From positions 1 to 48,447 of the forward strand of contig NZ_AYTW01000023.1 of the NCBI RefSeq assembly GCF_002752635.1: a stretch of DNA of 48,447 nt, in the 5' to 3' direction. Below, piece by piece: positions 9,963 to 44,968 of this stretch. A model generated the notes under the pieces. The model searched no databases. It saw only the letters and a list, made by a program, of their open reading frames with translations, and was not told the DNA's origin. Origin of the DNA: Mesotoga sp. Brook.08.105.5.1. GTDB taxonomy: Bacteria > Thermotogota > Thermotogae > Petrotogales > Kosmotogaceae. Position 1 is the stretch's first letter. Each line of letters starts with the position of its first letter. Made by a program: the position numbers and the translations under genes.

Positions 9963-11882
9963 CTAATTGACTTCCTGCAGAGCTGCCTCTTCAAGGTATT
10001 CAGCGAGTTCAAACAGGTCTACTTTGTAGACTCCCCATCCTGCCTCATCAACCTCTAAGAAATCTATTCCGCGAATTGCATTTCTCTCAACGTATCCTTG
10101 ACCTTCTGGAGAAGATCGATAGAGAAGAGGTCCGGCGGTCTCGATGGGAAGAATCTTCCAGTTGTTCGTGGGGGCGGGATCTACTTCGCCAATATATTGT
10201 ATGTACTTTATTATTGCCTCCCGGTTTATCTCCGTTGTGGCAAGTATAACGTTATCGGCTACATGTGGGAAATTTCCTCCTCCACTCCCTCGGTAGTTGT
10301 TTGTCACTACCAGGAACTCCATTGACGCATCAAGCGGATTGCCTTCAAAGGTCGCAGAAATCAGTCGCTGGCCGGCAGGCCTGGTTATGTCGTAAACGTA
10401 TTCTATTCCTTCAATCACATCGAAGTTGTATTCCCTGAAATCGTAGTTGACTATATGTTGCGGCTCTGCAGACGACGGGTCAATCTGATTGAAGTTACTT
10501 GCGGCCGCCTCGAGCCAGTCTTTTATCTGTTCGCCGTTAAGTTTTGCCACATAAATAGTATTCGGGTAAATGTAGATGTCAGTAATTGAGCCGATCGAGA
10601 TGTCTCCTTGAACGTGTGTGAAATATGTCGGGCCCTGTCTGCCGGCAATGAATGGAGCAGCAGCGCTGAGAATTGGGAGCCATTCGTATTCGGAACCGGC
10701 AAATTCACGCTCCGCCCACCATATTTGAGCTTCGTTTATGATCTGAGTGACAGGATTGTCCATTATTCTTGAGAAGTAAGACGTTATCTCAGTATCGGTC
10801 CAGCCGATGGGAGTTCTTACATACTCAATCGTCGCTTCGTGCTTCGGCCAAACGAGTTCAGCCAGAAGCGGATGAGTTTCGACATCGGCGTCAACGGGAA
10901 CAAGAGCTGCCGAACCATCTAACACTTCCCACTCTCCCGTATTCCAGTCATAGGCGAGGTCGAGACTTATTACACCTAAGTGTGAACCCCAAGAGCCCGG
11001 AAGTACAGTAGGAACACCGAAGATTAGGCCCTTGTCGTTATCGATGCTCTCGATGTCTGCAAAATCCCCAGGGAAATGAGAATGTTGGTGACCAAGAATC
11101 ATTGCGTCAATACCTTCGATCTGAGCGAGATAATAGCCGGCGTTCTCCTGAGCGTCATAACTGGTTATTTCATCTGTGGAGATTCCCGTGTGGGCAACTG
11201 CAATTACGAGGTCTGCCTGGTCTCTGAGGATAGGAATGTACTTTTCTGCTTGTTCGACAATACCCTGTGTGAAGACGTTGCCTTCAAGATGACGTCTTCC
11301 CCAGCTCATAATCTGTGGCGGCGTGAAGCCGATCACACCGATCTTGATCGGGATTCCATCGACTTCTCTCTCGAGAATTACGTATGGGTCGGTCAAGAAT
11401 CCCTTGGGATCATCTGCAAGCCTTATGTTTGCTGATACCCAGGGAAAAATCGAATTGCTTTTCGCGCGTTCAAAGAATTGCAGGCCAAAGTCAGTAACAT
11501 CGTGATTTCCGACGGAGACTGCATCGTAACCTATGTAGTTGTAGGCACGGACGATGGTCTGGAAGTCGAATCCCTTAAGAGGATTCACATCGGCCTCGTA
11601 ATCTCCGACAAGGCTTCCCTGAATGAAGTCGCCTGTGTCGAAGAGCAGAGTGTTTGCGTTTTCGTCTCTCACTTTTTCGATGAGCGTGAAAACCTTTGCA
11701 AGACCAATACTCTCATTCGGTTTGTCCCCCATGTAGTCGTAGGGCATTATGTATTGATGCATGTCTGTTGTACCCATTATGACAAGGGTATGGGCAGTCT
11801 TGCCAGCAGCAGAAAACAACGCACTCGAAAAAGCTACCAGAATCAGCAGAACCAGTGACAGAACCTTTCTTCTATCAGGCAT
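9963..11882 (-). CDS. Exported 5'-nucleotidase / 2',3'-cyclic-nucleotide phosphodiesterase family enzyme
   Basis: This 639-residue protein starts at ATG 11882 with AAGGAGGAG upstream and has a signal peptide at residues 1-28. The N-terminal metallophosphatase domain (about 30-330) shows all family metal-site motifs: GTTDMHQ, FDTGDFIQGS, VGNHDVTDFG, VAHTGIS and LGHQHSHF. The C-terminal 5'-nucleotidase domain (about 360-600) binds the nucleotide. CpdB-type enzymes hydrolyse 2',3'-cyclic nucleotides and 3'-nucleotides outside the cell to recover nucleosides and phosphate. The GTTDMH form and the length fit CpdB better than UshA, but the substrate is inferred. It is monocistronic, with a shared terminator downstream. 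Confidence 0.88.
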   Translation of the reverse strand: MPDRRKVLSLVLLILVAFSSALFSAAGKTAHTLVIMGTTDMHQYIMPYDYMGDKPNESIGLAKVFTLIEKVRDENANTLLFDTGDFIQGSLVGDYEADVNPLKGFDFQTIVRAYNYIGYDAVSVGNHDVTDFGLQFFERAKSNSIFPWVSANIRLADDPKGFLTDPYVILEREVDGIPIKIGVIGFTPPQIMSWGRRHLEGNVFTQGIVEQAEKYIPILRDQADLVIAVAHTGISTDEITSYDAQENAGYYLAQIEGIDAMILGHQHSHFPGDFADIESIDNDKGLIFGVPTVLPGSWGSHLGVISLDLAYDWNTGEWEVLDGSAALVPVDADVETHPLLAELVWPKHEATIEYVRTPIGWTDTEITSYFSRIMDNPVTQIINEAQIWWAEREFAGSEYEWLPILSAAAPFIAGRQGPTYFTHVQGDISIGSITDIYIYPNTIYVAKLNGEQIKDWLEAAASNFNQIDPSSAEPQHIVNYDFREYNFDVIEGIEYVYDITRPAGQRLISATFEGNPLDASMEFLVVTNNYRGSGGGNFPHVADNVILATTEINREAIIKYIQYIGEVDPAPTNNWKILPIETAGPLLYRSSPEGQGYVERNAIRGIDFLEVDEAGWGVYKVDLFELAEYLEEAALQEVN

Positions 11883-26335: not shown

Positions 26336-28366
26336 TCAATTGGCAGGATTAATTATTACTATTCTTCCCTCATTCACAGGAGCGATCGTTCCATGCCTTT
26401 CAACGTATTCCGCGAAGGCGTCTCTCAGGAAAGACTTTGTCACAATAGTCTTCTCCATTTCGAGGAACATTGTGAACTTGTCTCCTCCGCCCGTGAGGAA
26501 GTCGTTAGCCGTAAGGGTATAGGTCTTTTCGAGGTCGAGAGGTACGCCGTTGGATGTCACGGATATCAATCGCTCATACGGTGGTTTAGAAGCGTCGAAT
26601 GTGTATTCAAGCCCCGATACCTGTAAGAACTGACCGGCGGCGGCCGGGTAGGCCGAAATGCCGTGTTCAAGGATGTCCCATATCTGTTTTCCCGTTGCCT
26701 TTACGGCAACTACGAGGTTGTCGAAGGGGAGAACGGTATATACGTCCTTTATTGTTATATCTCCCGCGGGAACACTTGCTCGAACTCCGCCTCCGTTCTG
26801 GATTGCGAAATCAGTCCCCGTCATCTCTCTCAGACTGTCGGCTATAGCGTTGGCCAGATTGGATTCTTTGAGGCGCACAGTTCCTCGTTCTCCATCGAGA
26901 TCGACTTCGGTCCTTCCAATTACTGTACCGAGCCTATCGTCGAGCTGCGAGACATAACTCTCTACCACTTCAACCACGGCCTCATCCTGCGGCAGATTTT
27001 GGCTCATGAAGACGTGAGCAAAGTTGATTCCGATTACCTCGCCTCTGTAGATATTTAGATTAGTCTTTGAGATCAGCTCTGCATGTTTACCTGAAGAGAT
27101 TACCCAGCTTCCGTTTATCTTCTCCGGGAAAGCGACAACGTCTCTTCCGCCTTCAAATATCAGATCGTATCCGGAGACCTTTATCGGTAGTACTCTGTTT
27201 CCACCATGCAAGTGTGCAAGGGCGAAAACCAGATCTACCTGGGGAGACACTTCATCCAGGACTCTCTGCGCGGCCGAATACTGCTCTTCAAATGTTATTC
27301 CGGCAACATTTCTGGGGTGTGTATACCAGGCGCTGCTGTCATCGGTAAGCCCCACAATCGCTATCTTGAGACCCGCAATCTCCTTGATTATGTATGGCTC
27401 AAGAAAGTATGGGGATTCTCCCAGGTATAAAGTATTGGCGCCAAGGAATGGGAAATTCGCAAGCTGGCTATTTCTTTCCATAACGTTGAATGGGAAATCG
27501 AAGTCGTGGTTGCCGAGTACCATCGCATCGTAACCCATCATGTTCATTATCTTTATTACAGGTTCACCTTCGAAAAGATTGGCAACATTTGTGTTATAGG
27601 GAGCATCTCCTACGTCGAGAAGGAGAAGGTTGGGCTGCATTGCGCGTTCGGTGTTGACAAAGTATGCCATTTTCTCAACCGCTCCGACGGGATATTTCGC
27701 CCCACTGGGGAAGTATGGCTCGATGTGACCATGAATATCTGCGGTCGCCAGAATGGTGATAATCGTGAAGTCTGGGTTTTCTACGAAGTTGGAAAGGATT
27801 TGCGCAGCTTCCTCTCTTCTCAGTGGTCTGTCAAGAGAAAGCAGCTCGGCAGGTGCGTAAACTAGCTCTCTAAGTTTTGCTTCATAATCTACAGGCTCAT
27901 CTACTCCGAAAAGAACCTTTGCTACAGCAAGTCCGAATTCAGCTGCGGTTATTGGTTCAAACGGCCTATATTCTCCGTTGACCACCTCTTCTGCACGGAT
28001 CTTTATAAGCCCCTCGATGTATTCCTCTCCTTCGATATCGACGATATCTTTGGCAGACGGAACAACGAAAGCCTCATCAATAACACCAAGTGGATCGGTG
28101 TAGACGAACTTCTTCTCAACCTCTTCTTCGATCTTCATCGAATGAATCGTTGACAATTTGAATGTCTTGACAATCCACTCGGCCGCGTCAGCTCTTGAAA
28201 GAGCCTCAGCTGGATAGAAATACCCATCAAATGCCTCAACTATTCCCGAGGCATGAAGTTTTTCGATCGCAGCAGAATACGGACTGCCCGCGATATCTTT
28301 GAAGGTTGCAAAGGATAGAACACAAACCAGAATCAGCGCAATCAATACGAACTTACTCCTCAACAT
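26336..28366 (-). CDS. Surface 5'-nucleotidase-like protein with N-terminal SLH-type region
   Basis: The ATG at 28366 has AGAGGAGGG upstream and opens a signal peptide. Residues about 22-195 contain an S-layer-homology-like region: FKDIAGSPYSAAIEKLHASG, FYPAEALSRADAAEWIVK, YRPFEPITAAEFGLAV and LRREEAAQIL. The metallophosphatase domain follows with ATADIHGHIEP, LDVGDAPYNTN, LGNHDFDF and ALAHLHGG. The family's GHxH metal motif is replaced by EGGRD near residue 405, so two histidines are missing. The C-terminal nucleotidase domain is well kept, with AIQNGGGVRASVPAGDIT. SLH segments anchor proteins to the cell wall or sheath. It may act on nucleotides at the surface with altered metal use, or be a binding protein. 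Confidence 0.85.
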   Translation of the reverse strand: MLRSKFVLIALILVCVLSFATFKDIAGSPYSAAIEKLHASGIVEAFDGYFYPAEALSRADAAEWIVKTFKLSTIHSMKIEEEVEKKFVYTDPLGVIDEAFVVPSAKDIVDIEGEEYIEGLIKIRAEEVVNGEYRPFEPITAAEFGLAVAKVLFGVDEPVDYEAKLRELVYAPAELLSLDRPLRREEAAQILSNFVENPDFTIITILATADIHGHIEPYFPSGAKYPVGAVEKMAYFVNTERAMQPNLLLLDVGDAPYNTNVANLFEGEPVIKIMNMMGYDAMVLGNHDFDFPFNVMERNSQLANFPFLGANTLYLGESPYFLEPYIIKEIAGLKIAIVGLTDDSSAWYTHPRNVAGITFEEQYSAAQRVLDEVSPQVDLVFALAHLHGGNRVLPIKVSGYDLIFEGGRDVVAFPEKINGSWVISSGKHAELISKTNLNIYRGEVIGINFAHVFMSQNLPQDEAVVEVVESYVSQLDDRLGTVIGRTEVDLDGERGTVRLKESNLANAIADSLREMTGTDFAIQNGGGVRASVPAGDITIKDVYTVLPFDNLVVAVKATGKQIWDILEHGISAYPAAAGQFLQVSGLEYTFDASKPPYERLISVTSNGVPLDLEKTYTLTANDFLTGGGDKFTMFLEMEKTIVTKSFLRDAFAEYVERHGTIAPVNEGRIVIINPAN

Positions 28367-32683: not shown

Positions 32684-33253
32684 CTACTGCAAGTTTCCGG
32701 ATTTGTCGTTATTCTCAGGTTTGATAATTGTATACTTCTCGAAAAGCCGGACGGTAATGATGCCGCATAGCGCTCCGAGTACAATCCCGGTGATAACGTC
32801 CGAGAAGTAACTGAAATAGACGTATATTTCGGCAAGCGCTATGAAAGCAGAGAGAAGGACAAGGGGAACTCTGAGCATCTTGACGTTGTTCCAGAGAACG
32901 GCTGTGTAGGCAAATGCAATAGTAACCGGAGAAGATGGGAATGAGTAAGTTTCGGGAGTCGGAAAGATTATCGCGTACCCCTCGATGAACTCGAGTGGCC
33001 TCAACCTCCCGAAGATGGGCTTAAGGATAACGAAGGCAACAAGCAGACTTATCGCTAGCCCAAGCGAAGTCATGTAGCCGGCCCTGCGGAACCTCTTGTC
33101 GAAGAGGAGAAGGACCGTCAGTAGTATCCATACGAGGGCCCCCCTTTCGAGAAACAGCATAAAAGAAAGGAACAGATCCATTACCTCTCCAGATATTGCC
33201 GAGTTCAGCGAATTCATTAACGAAAGCTCAAATTCATTCAACGCATCCCACAT
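32684..33253 (-). CDS. PAP2-fold membrane protein lacking the phosphatase catalytic residues
   Basis: The 189-residue protein has five or six hydrophobic helices and the PAP2 outline. The KPIFGRLRP segment (about residue 80) matches the family's KxxxxxxRP motif. The second motif, normally PSGH, reads SFPSSPVTIAF, without the His. The third, normally SRxxxxxHxxxD, reads AEIYVYFSYFSDVITG, keeping only the Asp. The catalytic His and the transition-state-stabilising Arg and His are thus gone. It sits in the cytoplasmic membrane. It is probably a non-hydrolytic member, for example in lipid binding or transport. It begins at ATG 33253 with GGTGG upstream. Confidence 0.75.
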   Translation of the reverse strand: MWDALNEFELSLMNSLNSAISGEVMDLFLSFMLFLERGALVWILLTVLLLFDKRFRRAGYMTSLGLAISLLVAFVILKPIFGRLRPLEFIEGYAIIFPTPETYSFPSSPVTIAFAYTAVLWNNVKMLRVPLVLLSAFIALAEIYVYFSYFSDVITGIVLGALCGIITVRLFEKYTIIKPENNDKSGNLQ

Positions 33254-33327: not shown

Positions 33328-34383
33328 TTATCTTAGAATATCTTGAATAGCGGCGATCTCTGTGTAAGTGAGACCGGCCCTCTTCGTCAGGTAGTCAAGC
33401 GCAACGCTCTTGACGTTGACATCGTCAACTGGATTGCCATTGTTCATAAGAACAAAGAGATCGGCGATAATCTTCTTCACTGCATCGTAGGCTGCCGTTC
33501 CCTGCTTCACATTGTAGTAGTTCTCATAGGATTTGACATAGTCCGCGTAGATCTCGTTGGTCTTTGCGTTCATAATCGCTCCAAGCAGAGCGGAGGCGAT
33601 TCCGGCCCTGTCCTTGCCTTCAACGCAGTGGATAAGATACGGCGGCTCGTGAGAGATCATGAACCTCAGGCCCTCTCCAAGTTTCTTCGCGAAATCTTCA
33701 GCAAGAGGATCTACTCCCATATTTAGGTTTATCAGGTTTCCGGCTTCACCGATTGCCTTGTAATACTCCGAGTACTCCCAGTTCGATGCAAGCTCTTCGT
33801 CTGAATCGGAGAGATTGATTACAGTCCTGATTCCCGCTTGCTCTATTAGGGCCGATGCGTAAGGCGACCTGGGATCGCTGATTGAAGGATGGGAACATCT
33901 GTATAGCTTACCGGGTGCGATCTCTCCCATCGTTACTTCCCTGAAGTTTGCAAAGATCTCATCGCTAGCATAATCATCCCTTACATCCGTTCTTACAAGG
34001 TGTCTGATCTCCAATTCGTCCCTATAGGCCCCCTTCTCGATAAGCCCCATATTAAGAAGATCTCCAACGGCAAGTCCGTACGTCTGAGCGAAATTGCCAT
34101 AGTTGATGGCAAGAAGAACATGGTCGCCGGAATACCTTGCCAGCGGCTGTCCCCTGTCGACATCGCCGTATGTAGTTACGAATGGAACCATGATCGTTGT
34201 AGTGCCCATAGTCACGTAAACAAGATCTCCAGCTTCAATGGCGGCATAAACAACTGCTTCCATCGGAATATTCGTATGAACGTTACCGTACTTATCAATC
34301 TCGGCTACTGCACCAACGATTCCGGCAAGCATCAAAGCTGACAGAACCACAAAAACACCCAGTAACAACCCTTTCTTAAGCAT
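33328..34383 (-). CDS. Exported fusion: SAM-hydrolase C-terminal-like domain plus tyrosine phosphatase
   Basis: The ATG at 34383 has GGTGGAGGTG upstream and starts a signal peptide (residues 1-26). Residues about 27-125 match the C-terminal beta domain of SAM hydroxide adenosyltransferase/hydrolase (DUF62) proteins: EIDKYGNVHTNIP, TYGDVDRGQPLARYSG and LLAINYGNFAQTYGLAVGD. Residues about 140-351 are a tyrosine phosphatase of the PF13350 type, starting FREVTMGEIAPGKLYRCSHP and carrying the P-loop YLIHCVEGKDRAGIASALLG (HCx2GKDR, catalytic Cys). The N-terminal catalytic domain of DUF62 is absent, so the beta domain may bind a nucleoside-like ligand. The export signal places the phosphatase in the periplasm. 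Confidence 0.85.
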   Translation of the reverse strand: MLKKGLLLGVFVVLSALMLAGIVGAVAEIDKYGNVHTNIPMEAVVYAAIEAGDLVYVTMGTTTIMVPFVTTYGDVDRGQPLARYSGDHVLLAINYGNFAQTYGLAVGDLLNMGLIEKGAYRDELEIRHLVRTDVRDDYASDEIFANFREVTMGEIAPGKLYRCSHPSISDPRSPYASALIEQAGIRTVINLSDSDEELASNWEYSEYYKAIGEAGNLINLNMGVDPLAEDFAKKLGEGLRFMISHEPPYLIHCVEGKDRAGIASALLGAIMNAKTNEIYADYVKSYENYYNVKQGTAAYDAVKKIIADLFVLMNNGNPVDDVNVKSVALDYLTKRAGLTYTEIAAIQDILR

Positions 34384-34755
34384 AAAACACCTCCACCTAT
34401 CCTATTTAGACGTTAAGATATTTGCACCATAATTATATCACCAGCGACTTTTAATCACGAAGAGACCAATCATCATTATCCGCATGATACGATTATCAGA
34501 CAACCGAATAGTTCTGTTGTCACGCACTACGACTCCCGCTACTCCGTTTATACCACACATGGAGACGTACAGAAACGAACAAAGAAGTGTTCGCACTCTT
34601 TTCCGAAGAATTCTCAAGAAGAGACTCTGGCCGCTAGAGACTGAATCGACCAGCTCCGTTCTAGAATCAATAGGGAGATGTTTGGCAGATAAGTACTCAC
34701 TTTTCGGACGAACTATTGATTTCATCTCCTAATTCGGATCGTGGAGGAGAATGAG
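34384..34755. other. Divergent intergenic region
   Basis: This 370-base stretch separates two divergently read genes and must contain both promoters. A possible open frame at 34484-34732 is low in complexity and lacks a ribosome site. No convincing -35/-10 pair stands out. Confidence 0.35.
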
Positions 34756-38344: not shown

Positions 38345-39958
38345 TTAGAAGGTGATGGTCGAATTGGCAATAGTCCAGCTCTTGTTCCAGAATGTGTAAC
38401 TTACGTCTGGAATCCCGTCACAGAGGTCCTTCAACCAGCCTGCCATGTGCACTCCGCCATTTACGTCGAACCCTGCCGTAACTTTGTAGCCTACCTGTGT
38501 TGTGCTTCCAGCCGAGGCAATGGTTTCACCTTTCAACCACGGAACAAACTGGACAAAAGGACCGGCGATATAGTAGACATATGCCGATAGAGTTAGCGGG
38601 ATAGAGCCTTTGGCCCAGGCATTCACTTTTGCGTTCGCGTCGAATTGGAGGCCAGAGTAGTTTGCCGAGTACGAAACGCTCTTGCTCCAACCGTTCTGAT
38701 ACGTGACCGTTAGCATTGTGTTTGCCGAGAGTGTTGTCGACGCATTGAAGCCTATTACACCGGAAATACCAGCTTCAGCGTTCGCATCGAACTTGACTTC
38801 CATGACGAGTGTTACCGGAACACAAGATACCCAGAAGGTTATCCACTTGGTCTTGGTTGTTATGTTCTTTGTCCAATTCTTTGTGATCGTCGCTCCGGAT
38901 GAGACCTCAATGAACGGCGTCAATGAAGGGCTTAAGCTTACAGTCGTCTGGAATTTCTTCAAGACGTATTTGTATTTCCACCAGCTGACTTTCTTCCATT
39001 CGTGCTCCCACAGAAGTGATGCGCCGAATGTTAAGCTGACGGTCAATCCGGGCTCGACTGTCAAGGTTTGGTACGAGAACTCGTTCGAGAATGTATGGGA
39101 AACATAGAAGCTCCACGAACCGGAATAATCTTCTTTGAAGTCATAAGGTTTCGGTTCGGTCAACGACCGAGTTTTCAAACTCTTGAAAACAACGGTGAAG
39201 GCAGCATAATCTCTCAGCTTCTCCATAAGATCTTCGTTGTCGGATTTTACTAGGTTGCTTGGCGAACCGCCTCCGGTAGTGGTCTCTTCCTTAATGGTAA
39301 CCGTATTTTTGTCGTAGGTAAGACTTGCCTTGAACTTCGTGCCCCCACCCAGATCTATTGACCAATCTTTTAGAGGTTTGTCGCCGTGAGGGGATAGTAA
39401 CTCGAAGATCTCCGATCCCTCCGGAAGAACGATTATAGTTGTCTTTGTAGTAACGAGCGAGTTCTTGGAGGAGCCTAGGAAGGCAGTTTCAAATGCTTTA
39501 CCGTCTATCAGGTCTTCGAAGTACTTGAGCATTATCTTCTCTTCAGAGAAATTCTTGCTCGAGAACTCGTAACTTCCCGGGAACTCCTTCGATTGCTTGA
39601 TTAGCCCGCTTACCTTCATAGTAATAACACTCTTGTAGTTGCCACTCTTATCGACCGATATGTCTATGTCTCTGTCTCCAAAGTTAGGTACGGATGCGTA
39701 GAGAAAGAAGTAGCCCTTGGAGATTTCGTCATAGAAGTTACTGAAAACCTCTTCACGCACTTCGCGATCGGAAAGGGCTTCACTGTGCTTAATGTATACT
39801 TTTGCCAGATCAGAGGATGGGACATATTCAGTACGGGTAATTACCGCGTTACCACCTGGTTCGATTACGATTTTGTCCTCTACCGTACGCTTGAACTGAG
39901 TAGAAAAGACCAATACCGATGACAAAACGATTACCGCAATCAGGATCTTTCTGAACAT
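38345..39958 (-). CDS. Large secreted beta-rich protein of unknown function
   Basis: The start is the ATG at 39958, with AAGGAGGTG upstream; the open frame extends further but without a ribosome site. After the signal peptide (MFRKILIAVIVLSSVLVFS) comes a domain of about 260 residues with long amphipathic strands. It is followed by a region rich in Trp, Tyr and Ser/Thr, for example WEHEWKKVSWWKYKYVLKKF and NASTTLSANTMLTVTYQNG. The second half alternates hydrophobic and polar residues like a beta barrel or sandwich, and two CV/CD cysteines are present. I recognise no family. It is probably a periplasmic or outer-sheath protein. Confidence 0.65.
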   Translation of the reverse strand: MFRKILIAVIVLSSVLVFSTQFKRTVEDKIVIEPGGNAVITRTEYVPSSDLAKVYIKHSEALSDREVREEVFSNFYDEISKGYFFLYASVPNFGDRDIDISVDKSGNYKSVITMKVSGLIKQSKEFPGSYEFSSKNFSEEKIMLKYFEDLIDGKAFETAFLGSSKNSLVTTKTTIIVLPEGSEIFELLSPHGDKPLKDWSIDLGGGTKFKASLTYDKNTVTIKEETTTGGGSPSNLVKSDNEDLMEKLRDYAAFTVVFKSLKTRSLTEPKPYDFKEDYSGSWSFYVSHTFSNEFSYQTLTVEPGLTVSLTFGASLLWEHEWKKVSWWKYKYVLKKFQTTVSLSPSLTPFIEVSSGATITKNWTKNITTKTKWITFWVSCVPVTLVMEVKFDANAEAGISGVIGFNASTTLSANTMLTVTYQNGWSKSVSYSANYSGLQFDANAKVNAWAKGSIPLTLSAYVYYIAGPFVQFVPWLKGETIASAGSTTQVGYKVTAGFDVNGGVHMAGWLKDLCDGIPDVSYTFWNKSWTIANSTITF

Positions 39959-40110
39959 GCTTACACCTCCTTTGAAGTCATACGTCTGAGTATAGCACCA
40001 AGGGTTAGTCGGTTTTTCCGGTTTGCAAGAGAGGTGATTCACCGTGGGTGGTCATACAAGAGAGGTGGTTTTCGCAAGGGGATTGAAGATCGTAACTGAA
40101 CAAACAAAAG

Positions 40111-41187
40111 CTAAGGAAAGATGACTGCAAAAGGGTGAATTTCGCCGAAATTGAGGAAGACGGAAACGGCTGAGCCGCCCTCATCGTTGTCCGTCAATAT
40201 GCGTGAGAAATCCGGGCCACCAGCTCTGTACCTCCCGAGTATCTTGAGTACCTTGAGTGTAAGCCAGCGAGAAGGTTCCTTTTTTTGACCGAAATCCCAG
40301 TTCTTCCAGGCCATCCAGACTGATTCGGGTATGAATCTCCCAGAAGAGGTACGTTTTGACTCCACTATTTCTATCATTTCATTGATGCGATGGTCATTAA
40401 CTTTTGTGGATGACCTTGAGACAACATCGAGTACATGGAGTATATCGAACCAGACTTCCGGACACTTCAACTTCGAGAAGTCGGTACCCATGTAGAATAT
40501 GTATGGATGATAATCTATTCTCCTTTCCCAGAGCGAAAGAAGAGACTCCACACCGAGTGAGACATTACTGCTTTTTCTGAACTCGGGGATTTCGAGAAGG
40601 AGCTTTGTCATTATGAGAGTGGCGTAGGGACAAGGATCTTCCTTTCTTCCAGGTCCGCGAAAGCTTCCGAGTTCTGGTGATGCGGCACATGGCCAGCCGT
40701 TGTCTCTTACCAGTTTTGCAAGGTATTCTACAGCCATCAGCACTCGTGCATCCTCTTGAAATCCCATTCTTGCTAGCGAATAAAGTGTTACCGGAGCATC
40801 ACAAAGCGCCCATGCAAACTGATCCGTTCCCAAACCGCCGAATTTCGAAGGGATATTCATGAGGACCTGGAAAGGACCTTGCGGAGAGCGATGCCGAAAT
40901 ATCTTCCCGATAATTTCTCCAACTCCAGGAGCATCGTTTCTTATCCCAAGATCGGCTAGAAATGTCAATTTGTGAATCAAATGTCCGGCATTCTTGTGGC
41001 TAGTTAGGACAGAGCCTGGCCAGTCTTGTAGCTCGGCGATCAACGATTTTATCTCCGGACAGTGGAGCATTCTCTTTCGTGATTCAATGACATCTTCGTT
41101 CTCTTTATCCTTAATAAGGAGATCCAGTCTGGTCTTGTACTCAACCCATGCAGAACCTTCAAGGAGCCATTCTATAGTCTCTTCCAT
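40111..41187 (-). CDS. Alpha/alpha-toroid protein (prenyltransferase/terpenoid-cyclase-like fold)
   Basis: The start is the ATG at 41187 (MEETIEWLLEGSAWVEYKTR), with GGAGG upstream; the longer open frame has no ribosome site. The 358-residue protein is built of paired helices with motifs like DQFAWALCDAPVTLYSLARM, DNGWPCAASPELGSFRGPGR, CPYATLIMTKLLLEI and SRWLTLKVLKIL. These are the QW-like repeats of squalene-cyclase and prenyltransferase barrels. No DxDD or zinc ligands of true cyclases or prenyltransferases are seen. Similar proteins are common and uncharacterised. The last 30 residues look unlike the rest and could follow a frameshift. Confidence 0.65.
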   Translation of the reverse strand: MEETIEWLLEGSAWVEYKTRLDLLIKDKENEDVIESRKRMLHCPEIKSLIAELQDWPGSVLTSHKNAGHLIHKLTFLADLGIRNDAPGVGEIIGKIFRHRSPQGPFQVLMNIPSKFGGLGTDQFAWALCDAPVTLYSLARMGFQEDARVLMAVEYLAKLVRDNGWPCAASPELGSFRGPGRKEDPCPYATLIMTKLLLEIPEFRKSSNVSLGVESLLSLWERRIDYHPYIFYMGTDFSKLKCPEVWFDILHVLDVVSRSSTKVNDHRINEMIEIVESKRTSSGRFIPESVWMAWKNWDFGQKKEPSRWLTLKVLKILGRYRAGGPDFSRILTDNDEGGSAVSVFLNFGEIHPFAVIFP

Positions 41188-41415
41188 GATTCGCCTCCAA
41201 AAAATGGCAAGAGCCTTCTTGGCATACTCTGATCTAGATCTTAGCACTGAAAGTGACAGATACAAGTGAATGGGCACCTATAATCGTTATCCGGAAAGCG
41301 AAAGAGAGATGTTCTCTACGGAAACGGTCTTTCTTGCGCGAAGTTGTGATAAAATCACGATAGCAGATGGAGTCAAGATTTTACCAGATACCTGTAAACA
41401 GGAGGGGTGATCATT

Positions 41416-41870: not shown

Positions 41871-43964
41871 TTACTGTCTGGTGGGATCGTTGTTTTTCTC
41901 TTCAAGCGCTTCGATCAGCCTTCTTATTTCGGGGGAGTCGACTGCCGACTCTTCAACGATTGAAAGCATCTCTTCGATGACAGGATTTAATCTCAGGCCA
42001 GCAATATGTTCCGATCCTTTGTTCACTTTGTTTGCTTCGGCTTCGATGGTTTCAACGACCATTTTCTTGAGAGATATAGAAGTTGCTCGAAGCGAGTTTC
42101 TGATGATCTTTACAATTTCCACTCGCAGTACCGGATTAGTCAGCCACCCGTTGTCTAGAATGACCCCGATACGGTAGTCGTCCGAGCATGATGGATCTTC
42201 CGATATGGCGTACAACAGGATTCTCCACAAGATGGGAGCTTTAGATCTCCGCCACCATTCGTAATAGAACTCCCTGCTCTTGTCATCGGTTTTTATAAGG
42301 AAGAGGATAGTGTCTCTCATCATATCTATGAATATGTGGAGCCATTCGGGCCCCGCCTCTCCTTCGCTCTCCTCGATTACTTTCCTAGCGCCGCATATGC
42401 TGTCGTGCTCTCTCAAGGTACTGTTCAAAACAGACATGTCGGCGACCGCTTTCATAAGCTGGGAGGTAAGGATCGACAGTATGTCTTCATAAAGGATGGC
42501 GAGGTTCGGTTCGAGCAGTTCCGACCAGAGCCTCTTCAGGCAATCAGTCGTTACAAGGGGTTCAAGGTCGTATTGTCTGTGGAAGAGAGAAAGCGTCGCC
42601 TCTCTTCCCGTCTGGGATAAAGAAAAGAAGTTCTGAATTGTCTTCGTTATTATCCAGGGACTTTCAGTTATTTCGACCTTCTTCAGAGCTTCGAGCATAG
42701 CTTGATCGGGTGTGTCGCGTTTGTGCCAGTTGTTGAGAATCAGGTTGAGCCATTCCGCCAGACAGTCGCCCGGTTTCTCTATCTCATTATTAGCGAGATA
42801 CTGGACGATTGAGGAGACCAGATATGGGTGCAGCAGAGAGTTTCTTGAGACCAGAAAGGTAAGGTGCTCCTGATCTGAACTTTCGAAGGCTGTCTTAACG
42901 AACCAGTCGGCAAGGTTTCTCTCAATCTCGTCAAGTGGGCCGTCTTCATTGAAGAGGCTGTCGAGAAGTCCCCTTGAATCGAGCCACCGCACCCAGTCGA
43001 AGTCATTTGCAAAACGGCAGAAGACCCTCGTGAGATCCTCACGATTGAGGCAGTATGTCAGGTAGCTGTCTGCTTTCCTATCTTGGCCGGGCTTCTTGGA
43101 TGCGAACCTGCCGATTCTCTCGGTATGACAGTTCAGGTCAGAACTTGCGAGAGAGGTCCACTTCTCGAGTGCCTTTTGAAGCTCGAGATGGGCAGTTGCT
43201 TCTTCGGGCACGAGTGGGTATGAAACGGGGATTACGTTGATTTCCTTCCATCTCTCTGCATCGCTAGCGCTGACGAGAGCGTATCTGTTTGACTGCCTTA
43301 TGTCCAAACCTCTGGCCAGATAATCGACAATGGTGTCCCTGTGACTGTAACCTATAAACAAAATCGTGTAGTCGGAGAGATAGAGATCGCGCAAGAAGTC
43401 TCTAGCCCAGCCCTCTGTGAGATATGCCCTTCCGAAGTCTCTGTTGGTAACTACCAACCATCTTGCGTCCTGCTCTACGTTTCCGTGCAAATAGACGATT
43501 CCCCTGAAATCGTCGCCTCTTGGAAGTGCGGGAGCTCTGAAGGTTTCAAAACCCGCATATCTATCTTTGTATTCCCTGATGGTTGTGAGAAAGTGAGCAT
43601 CGTAGTTGGTCGTAACGATCTTCAGGTCGTGAGGCCCTTTGAATAGAAGTGGGATCAGCCTGTGAAGCTCCGATGGCTTGGAACTCTCTTCACTCATGAT
43701 CTGCCTGACGATTTCGTGGACGCCCTCTTCTTCCCGTTTCGGGTTCAGGCTTCCGAGAAAGACGTCGGGCGGCTGGACTCTCTGCTGCCTCGCGTAATAC
43801 TTCTGCTTGTATCGCTTCGCGACGGCTTTCGCAAGGTCAACAAAGCCGGGAATGTTCGAGGGGGAGGCCATCGAAACGCCGGCTCCAGCAAAGACGACGA
43901 GCCTGCCTTCCTCCTGGGCCCTGATAAGCTCGGTGGGGACGTTCACATTATCTGTTATGAACAT
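41871..43964 (-). CDS. SIR2-domain protein, candidate NAD-degrading phage-defence effector
   Basis: The start is the ATG at 43964 (MFITDNVNVPTELI), with AGAGGGA upstream; the product is 697 residues. The N-terminal 280 residues are a SIR2 (SIR2_2-like) domain with VVFAGAGVSMAS (NAD loop), KIVTTNYDAHF (TTNxD), GIVYLHGNVEQDARWLV (catalytic His) and ILFIGYSHRDTIVDYLARGL. The C-terminal 400 residues are helical with no known sensor motif. Sirtuin domains of this kind in large bacterial proteins deplete NAD to abort phage infection (DSR-type, ThsA-type and related systems). There is no adjacent TIR, HerA or Argonaute gene, so this would be a stand-alone system. The end may be truncated, since protein-like sequence continues downstream. 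Confidence 0.82.
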   Translation of the reverse strand: MFITDNVNVPTELIRAQEEGRLVVFAGAGVSMASPSNIPGFVDLAKAVAKRYKQKYYARQQRVQPPDVFLGSLNPKREEEGVHEIVRQIMSEESSKPSELHRLIPLLFKGPHDLKIVTTNYDAHFLTTIREYKDRYAGFETFRAPALPRGDDFRGIVYLHGNVEQDARWLVVTNRDFGRAYLTEGWARDFLRDLYLSDYTILFIGYSHRDTIVDYLARGLDIRQSNRYALVSASDAERWKEINVIPVSYPLVPEEATAHLELQKALEKWTSLASSDLNCHTERIGRFASKKPGQDRKADSYLTYCLNREDLTRVFCRFANDFDWVRWLDSRGLLDSLFNEDGPLDEIERNLADWFVKTAFESSDQEHLTFLVSRNSLLHPYLVSSIVQYLANNEIEKPGDCLAEWLNLILNNWHKRDTPDQAMLEALKKVEITESPWIITKTIQNFFSLSQTGREATLSLFHRQYDLEPLVTTDCLKRLWSELLEPNLAILYEDILSILTSQLMKAVADMSVLNSTLREHDSICGARKVIEESEGEAGPEWLHIFIDMMRDTILFLIKTDDKSREFYYEWWRRSKAPILWRILLYAISEDPSCSDDYRIGVILDNGWLTNPVLRVEIVKIIRNSLRATSISLKKMVVETIEAEANKVNKGSEHIAGLRLNPVIEEMLSIVEESAVDSPEIRRLIEALEEKNNDPTRQ

Positions 43965-44968
43965 GATCTTTCCCTCTTTCTTCCACGATGTGATCGACTT
44001 TTCAAAGGCGCGGAATCTGCCTCCACAAGACATCTCTATGATGCAATGATACTACTTCTCAGCTGACTGCGTTTCATATGTGGCTTCTGAGAAGAAGCCT
44101 TGCTCTGAAGCTGACGAAGAAGGCAGTCCTGCCTAAGCCGCTCGAAAAGAGAGTACGCATCGCCGGAGGGCCCATAGAGTTACAGCGGAGGCTTCCGATT
44201 TTGAGGCGGGCCAAAACAATAAAGAGTAATAGGATTCCCGACAGGGTCTCCATGCATATGAGCAAAAACACCTTGTCCAAACGTTAGGGTGGGATGCCGA
44301 CGACTTAATTTGACAAACGCCTTAGCCGAACTCGAATAAAAAGCTTTCCCCATTCCCCAGTTCGACAAAAGCACTGTTGCACTGCTGGGCAATTCTGGGC
44401 ACAATGAACGTTCCCATGAAGATAATCCTCATCTGTCAGTGGCCAACGGTTTGCCGGGGAAAGGGCCTCAGAAGTGCGGGAAGCTTTCGAAAGTTAATGA
44501 GAGTATGCGTTATGGTCACATATATGCGAAATTACTAATATGGATTCTAAATATACTTTGTTTTTCCTTGGTAGATCTGGCATTCAACACATAATGTAAC
44601 TTTTGCGGCAATGAGTCGGATTGAAATGCTTTGTCGAAGTCCCTTCAGAGAGTCATCAATGCAAGCAATCTCACTAAAAAATTCTCCAGAGGCGGATTAT
44701 GAGATCAGTGTCTAAAAGTATACAGTTCATCGATGAGAAATGATATGAAATGACCATGAAATCTCAATTTCTAAACCCTTGGAGTTCGAGTGCTTTTCAT
44801 TCCGCTGATGCTAGACTGAATTAAAGAAAGAAATACGCCCTTCTCTGTTCCTCACTCATACTCTCTCTACACATTCAGGCTCCTTGGATAGTTTATGAAC
44901 TGGCTATTGGAAGTTTCATAGAATCTTGTGAAGGATTACCAAATGTTGTTCATGGAGGAGGGATGAAG
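43965..44968. other. One-kilobase region without a recognisable gene
   Basis: Short open frames on both strands at 44074-44404 lack ribosome sites and recognisable motifs. The rest is AT-rich (44500-44830). This is the divergent space between the SIR2 gene and the repeat lipoprotein gene, so it should hold both promoters; I cannot locate them with confidence. Confidence 0.4.

Follow-up and report, generated by a model that had tools for sequence, protein, structure and literature searches.

A predicted exported phosphatase of Mesotoga that joins a lone SAM hydrolase C-terminal barrel to a PtpB-type domain

The DUF62, or SAM hydroxide adenosyltransferase, family combines an N-terminal catalytic domain, SAM_HAT_N (PF01887), with a C-terminal β-barrel, SAM_HAT_C (PF20257), and includes T. 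maritima DUF62 (2zbv), SalL and the fluorinase FlA. In FlA, SAM is contacted by Asp210 at the methionine amine, by Asn215 at the adenine and by Ser269 and Arg270 at the methionine carboxylate (PMC1282579). The His-Arg-Asp triad of DUF62 is described in a 2023 review (PMC10491745), and a 2025 study of StDUF62 questions whether the enzyme's physiological role is (R,S)-SAM hydrolysis (PMC12120602). The PtpB-type protein tyrosine phosphatases (PTPs; Y_phosphatase3, PF13350) are represented by M. tuberculosis PtpB (1ywf) and a C. difficile PTP (8dhj). Catalysis by PtpB proceeds through attack of a cysteine on a phosphate held by the P-loop. A literature search, which lay mostly outside subscription journals and gives weak evidence of novelty, returned no report of a fusion between such a barrel and such a phosphatase, and the excerpt of PMC8787120 holds nothing on the protein described here.

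The window is a stretch of 48,447 nucleotides from Mesotoga sp. Brook.08.105.5.1. One of its genes encodes the protein considered here (the window protein), whose parts are listed in Table 1. The unit formed by a SAM_HAT_C barrel and a PTP (Y_phosphatase3) domain is designated β-PTP.

Table 1. Positions in the window of the β-PTP gene, its parts and other phosphatase genes
Feature	Position	Strand	Basis
Whole gene, 351 aa: signal peptide, SAM_HAT_C barrel, linker, Cys phosphatase	33328..34383	-	
Ribosome-binding site GGAGG, ATG 6 bases further on	34390..34394	-	sequence reading
Residues 1-20, signal peptide-like, MLKKGLLLGVFVVLSALMLA	34324..34383	-	hydropathy; low pLDDT at 2-19
Residues 21-116, SAM_HAT_C (DUF62 C-terminal) β-barrel	34036..34323	-	Pfam 24-109; VIA 19-113 on 2zbv
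DKYGN, residues 30-34, in barrel	34282..34296	-	alignments
Residues 117-139, conserved linker	33967..34035	-	conservation over relatives
Residues 140-351, PtpB-type (Y_phosphatase3) phosphatase domain	33331..33966	-	Pfam; VIA on 1ywf
P-loop HCVEGKDR, residues 252-259, Cys253 nucleophile, Arg259	33607..33630	-	sequence motif
PAP2-family phosphatase, next gene downstream of the β-PTP gene	32684..33253	-	Pfam; gene order
SLH-anchored UshA-type 5'-nucleotidase, ~5 kb downstream; context only	26336..28366	-	
Second 5'-nucleotidase-type protein (PF00149 + PF02872)	9963-11882	-	Pfam

Architecture and predicted structure

Pfam assigns residues 24–109 of the window protein to SAM_HAT_C (56.4 bits, cut-off 25.5, E = 3.9e-15) and residues 152–301 to Y_phosphatase3 (59.6 bits, cut-off 22.2, E = 5.8e-16). 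SAM_HAT_N was not found in the window protein by the Pfam scan and was found in L011 and L055. The AlphaFold2 model, built from a 21-sequence alignment, has a mean pLDDT of 91 and a pTM of 0.86, and both domains are predicted at high confidence. The first-pass annotation had proposed a lone DUF62 C-terminal domain joined to an HCx2GKDR phosphatase with the catalytic half absent, and had set as its test beforehand a resemblance of residues 27–125 to that domain. Pfam and both predicted folds agree with this proposal: in superpositions by VIA-align, residues 19–113 of the model match 2zbv with Z = 18.2 and an rmsd of 1.3 Å over 95 residues, at 28% identity. The phosphatase, residues 140–351, superposes on PtpB with Z = 16.0 and an rmsd of 3.9 Å over 188 residues, followed by the C. 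difficile PTP (Z = 15.5) and the inositol-pyrophosphate phosphatases PFA-DSP1/Siw14 (Z about 12.5–12.9). Among solved chains, residues ~20–115 are nearest in sequence to a chlorinase, SalL and T. maritima DUF62, and the phosphatase half is nearest to the C. difficile PTP and PtpB.

The phosphatase half carries a C(X)5R P-loop with GKDR, together with NFR and YR(S/C)S motifs. Among 74 distinct relatives, rows with fewer than 250 aligned residues having been dropped, the catalytic residues are almost invariant (Cys253 73/74, Lys257 73/74, Asp258 72/74, Arg259 74/74). One paralogue (L145, 1108–2196, minus strand) reads QGKDGQNR at the P-loop, lacks its Cys and is probably a dead phosphatase. The mean conservation, given as the fraction of the commonest residue, is 0.64 in the linker, 0.60 in the PTP and 0.51 in the barrel. 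Arg135 of the linker and Asp141 just past it are present in all rows, and Tyr120, Asp137 and Tyr138 in 97–99%. Such strong conservation of the linker argues for a fixed arrangement of barrel and phosphatase rather than a loose tether. Orthologues in five close genomes are 88–91% identical to the window protein and give dN/dS values of 0.06–0.07 for the barrel and 0.03–0.04 for the PTP, the synonymous sites of the latter being near saturation; against three remoter orthologues dN/dS is mostly saturated. The gene is under purifying selection and, given these orthologues and the low dN/dS, is not a chance reading frame.

The signal peptide of the first-pass annotation is likewise upheld by the N terminus, which is positively charged and hydrophobic in a simple hydropathy and motif script. 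We infer that the protein is exported as well as catalytically active. Of 72 reading frames, 68 have a hydrophobic segment that the script scores as signal-like; three of the remaining four belong to loci that end before the N terminus and one has an over-extended start. Envelope anchors occur on some relatives, namely a LysM domain after a tandem β-PTP–β-PTP in L133 and three SLH repeats in L166.

Distribution and fusion partners of the family

The gene is no rarity: the survey reveals a broad family, present in Thermotogota, many Spirochaetota and a few Bacillota. Some match occurs in 41 of 61 near-relative genomes and the complete two-domain protein in 18, and the remaining matches are mostly SAM hydrolases caught through their barrel. 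The barrel model matches in 99 of 103 Thermotogota genomes, and β-PTP is present in 21 of the 103 (the 18 near relatives plus G077, G078 and G079), a count based on open frames and translations. A search of named genomes of bacteria and archaea gave 43 loci, two with the PTP only (L123 and L124) and 41 with β-PTP relatives, counting the partial L116 and L117; grouped by record titles, the 41 comprise 13 from Thermotogota, 24 from spirochaetes, including Treponema vincentii and Breznakiella, and four from Bacillota. In Spirochaetota the barrel model matches 119 of 392 genomes, mostly in frames of SAM hydrolase size; in one spirochaete order a β-PTP query matches 78 of 139 genomes, 64 of them with E below 1e-30. 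The class to which a clostridial member belongs gave matches in 43 of 291 genomes, five near full length.

Carriage by phages or plasmids was rejected: a tblastn search of phages gave no match, and plasmids gave four matches, all with the PTP only. In BFVD, two proteins of 598 and 600 aa labelled "tyrosine phosphatase" (A0A8S5V632 and A0A8S5T7U1), from phage-labelled contigs, align with the whole window model over 331–352 columns and may be a similar fusion. On the Photobacterium plasmid pDA100, L181 (1129–2235, plus strand) has a PTP (PF13350) behind an N-terminal stretch without a Pfam match, which we take to resemble a carbohydrate-binding early-set fold; judged from translations it adjoins apparent amylase-type genes and looks like a bacterial glucan-phosphatase arrangement.

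Two further enzymes are fused to the β-PTP unit. (i) Five Thermotogota proteins of 630–647 aa (L010, L011 and L050–L052) consist of a signal peptide, a SAM hydrolase with complete N and C domains (Pfam was run on L011 and L050), a second barrel and the PTP. In the model of L011 (pLDDT 84.5, pTM 0.54), residues 40–313 superpose on T. maritima DUF62 with Z = 29.7 over 260 residues, and residues 436–647 on PtpB with Z = 16.0. The hydrolase motifs DPGVG and FHGRD are kept in four of the five; L050 is degenerate, with DPDVG and DHRRD, and has lost GN from the first barrel. (ii) Three spirochaete proteins, L135, L151 and L152 (936, 918 and 909 aa as read), carry a 5'-nucleotidase of the exported type in front of the β-PTP. 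Their β-PTP parts are 67–77% identical, so one assembly error does not account for this fusion. In addition, L019, from the Kosmotogales-type genome G014, which belongs to the family of the window genome, has a signal peptide, a barrel and a 5'-nucleotidase and no PTP.

In a tree of 70 β-PTP regions, the SAM hydrolase fusions cluster together, with support of 100/100 in the group table and 96/92 for their own branch of the full tree. The nucleotidase fusions make up a second cluster, for which the two values are 100/99 and 90/94, and both clusters stand beside plain β-PTP proteins. In the simplest reading, the plain β-PTP would be the parent form that was joined later to other enzymes; it looks parental because it is widespread and encloses the SAM hydrolase form as a single small group, in a tree that is unrooted. 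A barrel tree of 51 rows, which has few supported branches, many open forks and long-branch warnings, unites in one supported group (98/93) all β-PTP barrels, the barrel of L019 and, from the long proteins, the second barrels. The first barrels of the long proteins fall outside that group, among SAM hydrolases. Internal duplication as the source of the two barrels is disfavoured by this tree, subject to its long-branch warnings.

Other SAM hydrolases were seen in the fetched loci. L053 (2708–3577, plus strand; genome G024) has the SAM hydrolase N and C parts with an in-frame TAA and neither second barrel nor PTP. L054 (2083–3012, minus), L055 (2140–3024, minus) and L056 (1916–2863, plus), from three genomes of the family of the window genome, have apparent signal peptides and intact catalytic motifs and so look like exported DUF62 enzymes. 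In the spirochaete locus L132 (847–2420, plus), a SAM hydrolase is followed directly by the S component of an ECF riboflavin-type transporter.

Ligand positions of the barrel and gene neighbourhood

In the alignments, Asp30 of the window protein corresponds to Asp183 of SalL and Asp210 of FlA, and Asn34 to Asn188 of SalL and Asn215 of FlA. SalL was converted to FlA numbering by a constant offset of 27, which S242/S269 and R243/R270 also fit. At the SAM-contact positions the window protein thus has Asp30, Asn34 and Ser85, with Gly86 in place of Arg270. The adenine-contacting Asn is present in 64 of the 74 relatives (His in eight, Gly in one, a gap in one), and the Asp that contacts the methionine amine in 32 of the 72 with a residue there. 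The corresponding columns in 14 SAM hydrolases of the fetched loci have Asp in 14, Asn in 12 and Ser269 in 13. Only one of the 14 has Arg270, so its absence from the window protein says little. This pattern is consistent with adenine recognition having been kept and methionine recognition lost, as judged from aligned residues, and the YGN turn may have been kept for structure instead of adenine binding. Asp225 is lost in five of the nine rows with His or Gly at position 34, as against five of the 64 with Asn. Co-variation of the two positions was rejected as independent evidence because most of the variants in the tree sit together.

The PAP2 gene lies 74 bases downstream of the β-PTP gene on the same strand, and this order recurs in eight of 48 anchored loci (49 given), the window included, all in its genus. 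Over the 48 anchored loci, the gene-order survey found no neighbour common to several phyla and no sensory partner or conserved regulator. A separate 5'-nucleotidase gene occurs in two of 122 (redundant) β-PTP loci, the window and L067; in the latter (genome G018) it shares the strand of the long fusion and lies ~0.7 kb upstream, separated from it by one gene. Gene neighbourhood was rejected as a functional clue, PAP2 being limited to the genus of the window and the 5'-nucleotidase to two loci. Rfam found no SAM riboswitch in the window, and the window protein has no PADLOC match that would point to an anti-phage role.

Elsewhere in the window, a 720-aa SIR2-domain protein (41871–44033, minus), with a match to the Dsr1 models of PADLOC in its N-terminal part (E = 3.4e-43), adjoins two unannotated frames (38345–40042 and 40111–41277) in a possible defence locus. 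A group II intron RNA (RF00029; 47571–48439, minus) has an adjoining reverse transcriptase/maturase frame.

Possible function and comparison with known systems

The gene product would be a secreted, cysteine-dependent phosphatase, periplasmic or on the toga side, from which the export signal is cut off. A small phosphomonoester would be bound by the P-loop, HCVEGKDR with Arg259, and its phosphate attacked by Cys253, as in PtpB. The N-terminal barrel, by descent a SAM hydrolase C-terminal domain, would form with the linker a module fixed at the front of the phosphatase, no longer having catalysis of its own and serving most likely for structure, oligomer contacts or recognition of a nucleoside moiety in the substrate. 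The enzyme would probably act in nucleotide/adenosyl breakdown and salvage outside the cytoplasm, alongside an exported 5'-nucleotidase and an exported SAM hydrolase. An exported phosphatase that works beside extracellular nucleotide/adenosyl breakdown, with a barrel that is structural or nucleoside-recognising, is the account that we tentatively prefer, at rather less than even confidence. The part in nucleotide or adenosyl breakdown is a leading guess of similar strength, made because the fused enzyme partners act on nucleotides or SAM; the nucleotide-type substrate, like the function of the barrel, is conjecture. The fusions show association, not shared substrate. Several further observations stand against the nucleotide reading. 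A nucleoside site that lacks the DUF62 N domain would be incomplete, and the adenine Asn is replaced by His in eight relatives and by Gly in one. A separate 5'-nucleotidase gene accompanies only two of the 122 loci, the sole conserved neighbour is PAP2, confined to the genus of the window, and one relative (L145) lacks the catalytic Cys. In addition, the solved phosphatases nearest to the model are protein-tyrosine and inositol-pyrophosphate phosphatases, not nucleotidases.

Nearly as likely as the nucleotide/adenosyl role, though itself held at well under even confidence, is an exported PtpB/LipA-like phosphatase that acts on phosphotyrosine proteins, phospholipids or inositol phosphates, with a purely structural or oligomerising barrel that binds no nucleoside. 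The order of closest folds (PtpB, the C. difficile PTP, then PFA-DSP1/Siw14) suits it, as do a barrel that is less conserved than the PTP and is missing the half of the ligand site that an N domain would supply, and the PAP2 gene downstream in the genus of the window. The PAP2 family includes lipid phosphatases. Against this alternative stand the enzymes joined to the unit or its barrel, which are 5'-nucleotidases or SAM hydrolases, and the presence of the adenine-contacting Asn in most relatives.

The adenosine- or SAM-sensing phosphatase of the first-pass annotation, in which a ligand on the barrel would switch the phosphatase on or off, is improbable. The barrel is a genuine C-terminal domain of the DUF62 type, Asn34 is mostly kept and the conserved linker would allow coupling; however, half of the DUF62 site is missing and the gene-order survey offers no sensory partner or regulator. 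SAM sensing in particular is unlikely and finds no support here, since the catalytic half is absent and the methionine-side contacts are poorly kept (the amine Asp in 32/72 relatives versus 14/14 hydrolases); to our knowledge, SAM outside the cell is also not an expected signal. A link of the barrel to nucleosides stays plausible through the 5'-nucleotidase and SAM hydrolase fusions of relatives, which speak no less for catabolism than for sensing. Least probable by far is a decayed remnant, a truncated SAM hydrolase–phosphatase fusion whose barrel was left by chance. Full-length proteins with two barrels do exist, L050 with degenerate hydrolase motifs among them, and G024 has the broken copy L053 without PTP, but the plain β-PTP is widespread, with the SAM hydrolase form one small group within it in the unrooted tree, dN/dS is 0.03–0.07, and it is the second barrel of the long proteins, not the first, that groups with β-PTP barrels. 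A bolder extension of the preferred nucleotide/adenosyl account, which we regard as speculative, would make the barrel a nucleoside-grasping module reused outside the cytoplasm. With the PtpB-type domain it would form an undescribed class of Cys-based exported nucleotide phosphatase, wired by lineage to a SAM hydrolase or a 5'-nucleotidase as single-chain periplasmic nucleotide/adenosyl-stripping enzymes.

The new element is the set of fusion partners: an exported SAM hydrolase or 5'-nucleotidase on β-PTP, and a 5'-nucleotidase on the barrel. Exported SAM hydrolases, and reuse of a hydrolase domain in secreted phosphatases and nucleotidases, suggest adenosyl/nucleotide chemistry outside the cytoplasm that the clearance of (R)-SAM in the cytosol leaves unexplained. 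The preferred account also offers a substrate hypothesis for the β-PTP group, which is common in treponemes and in Pfam is labelled merely as a tyrosine phosphatase family.

Compared with the known systems, the barrel of the window protein is that of the DUF62 family. Unlike the DUF62 enzymes, the window protein lacks the N-terminal catalytic domain, and therefore the His-Arg-Asp triad, and has a signal peptide and a fused phosphatase. Its PTP shares with the PtpB-type enzymes, including 8dhj, the fold, the P-loop and the GKDR, NFR and YR(S/C)S motifs, and the protein differs from them in the SAM_HAT_C barrel, the conserved RxDYxSD linker and the signal peptide. The PTP fold is also that of the SIW14/PFA-DSP inositol-pyrophosphate phosphatases, but these are eukaryotic, have no barrel and are remoter than PtpB by both Z and sequence. 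The UshA-type 5'-nucleotidases (PF00149 plus PF02872) resemble the window protein in predicted export, in the barrel that is joined to one of them in L019 and in the β-PTP fused to them in L135, L151 and L152, whereas their unrelated metallophosphatase catalytic domain is absent from it.
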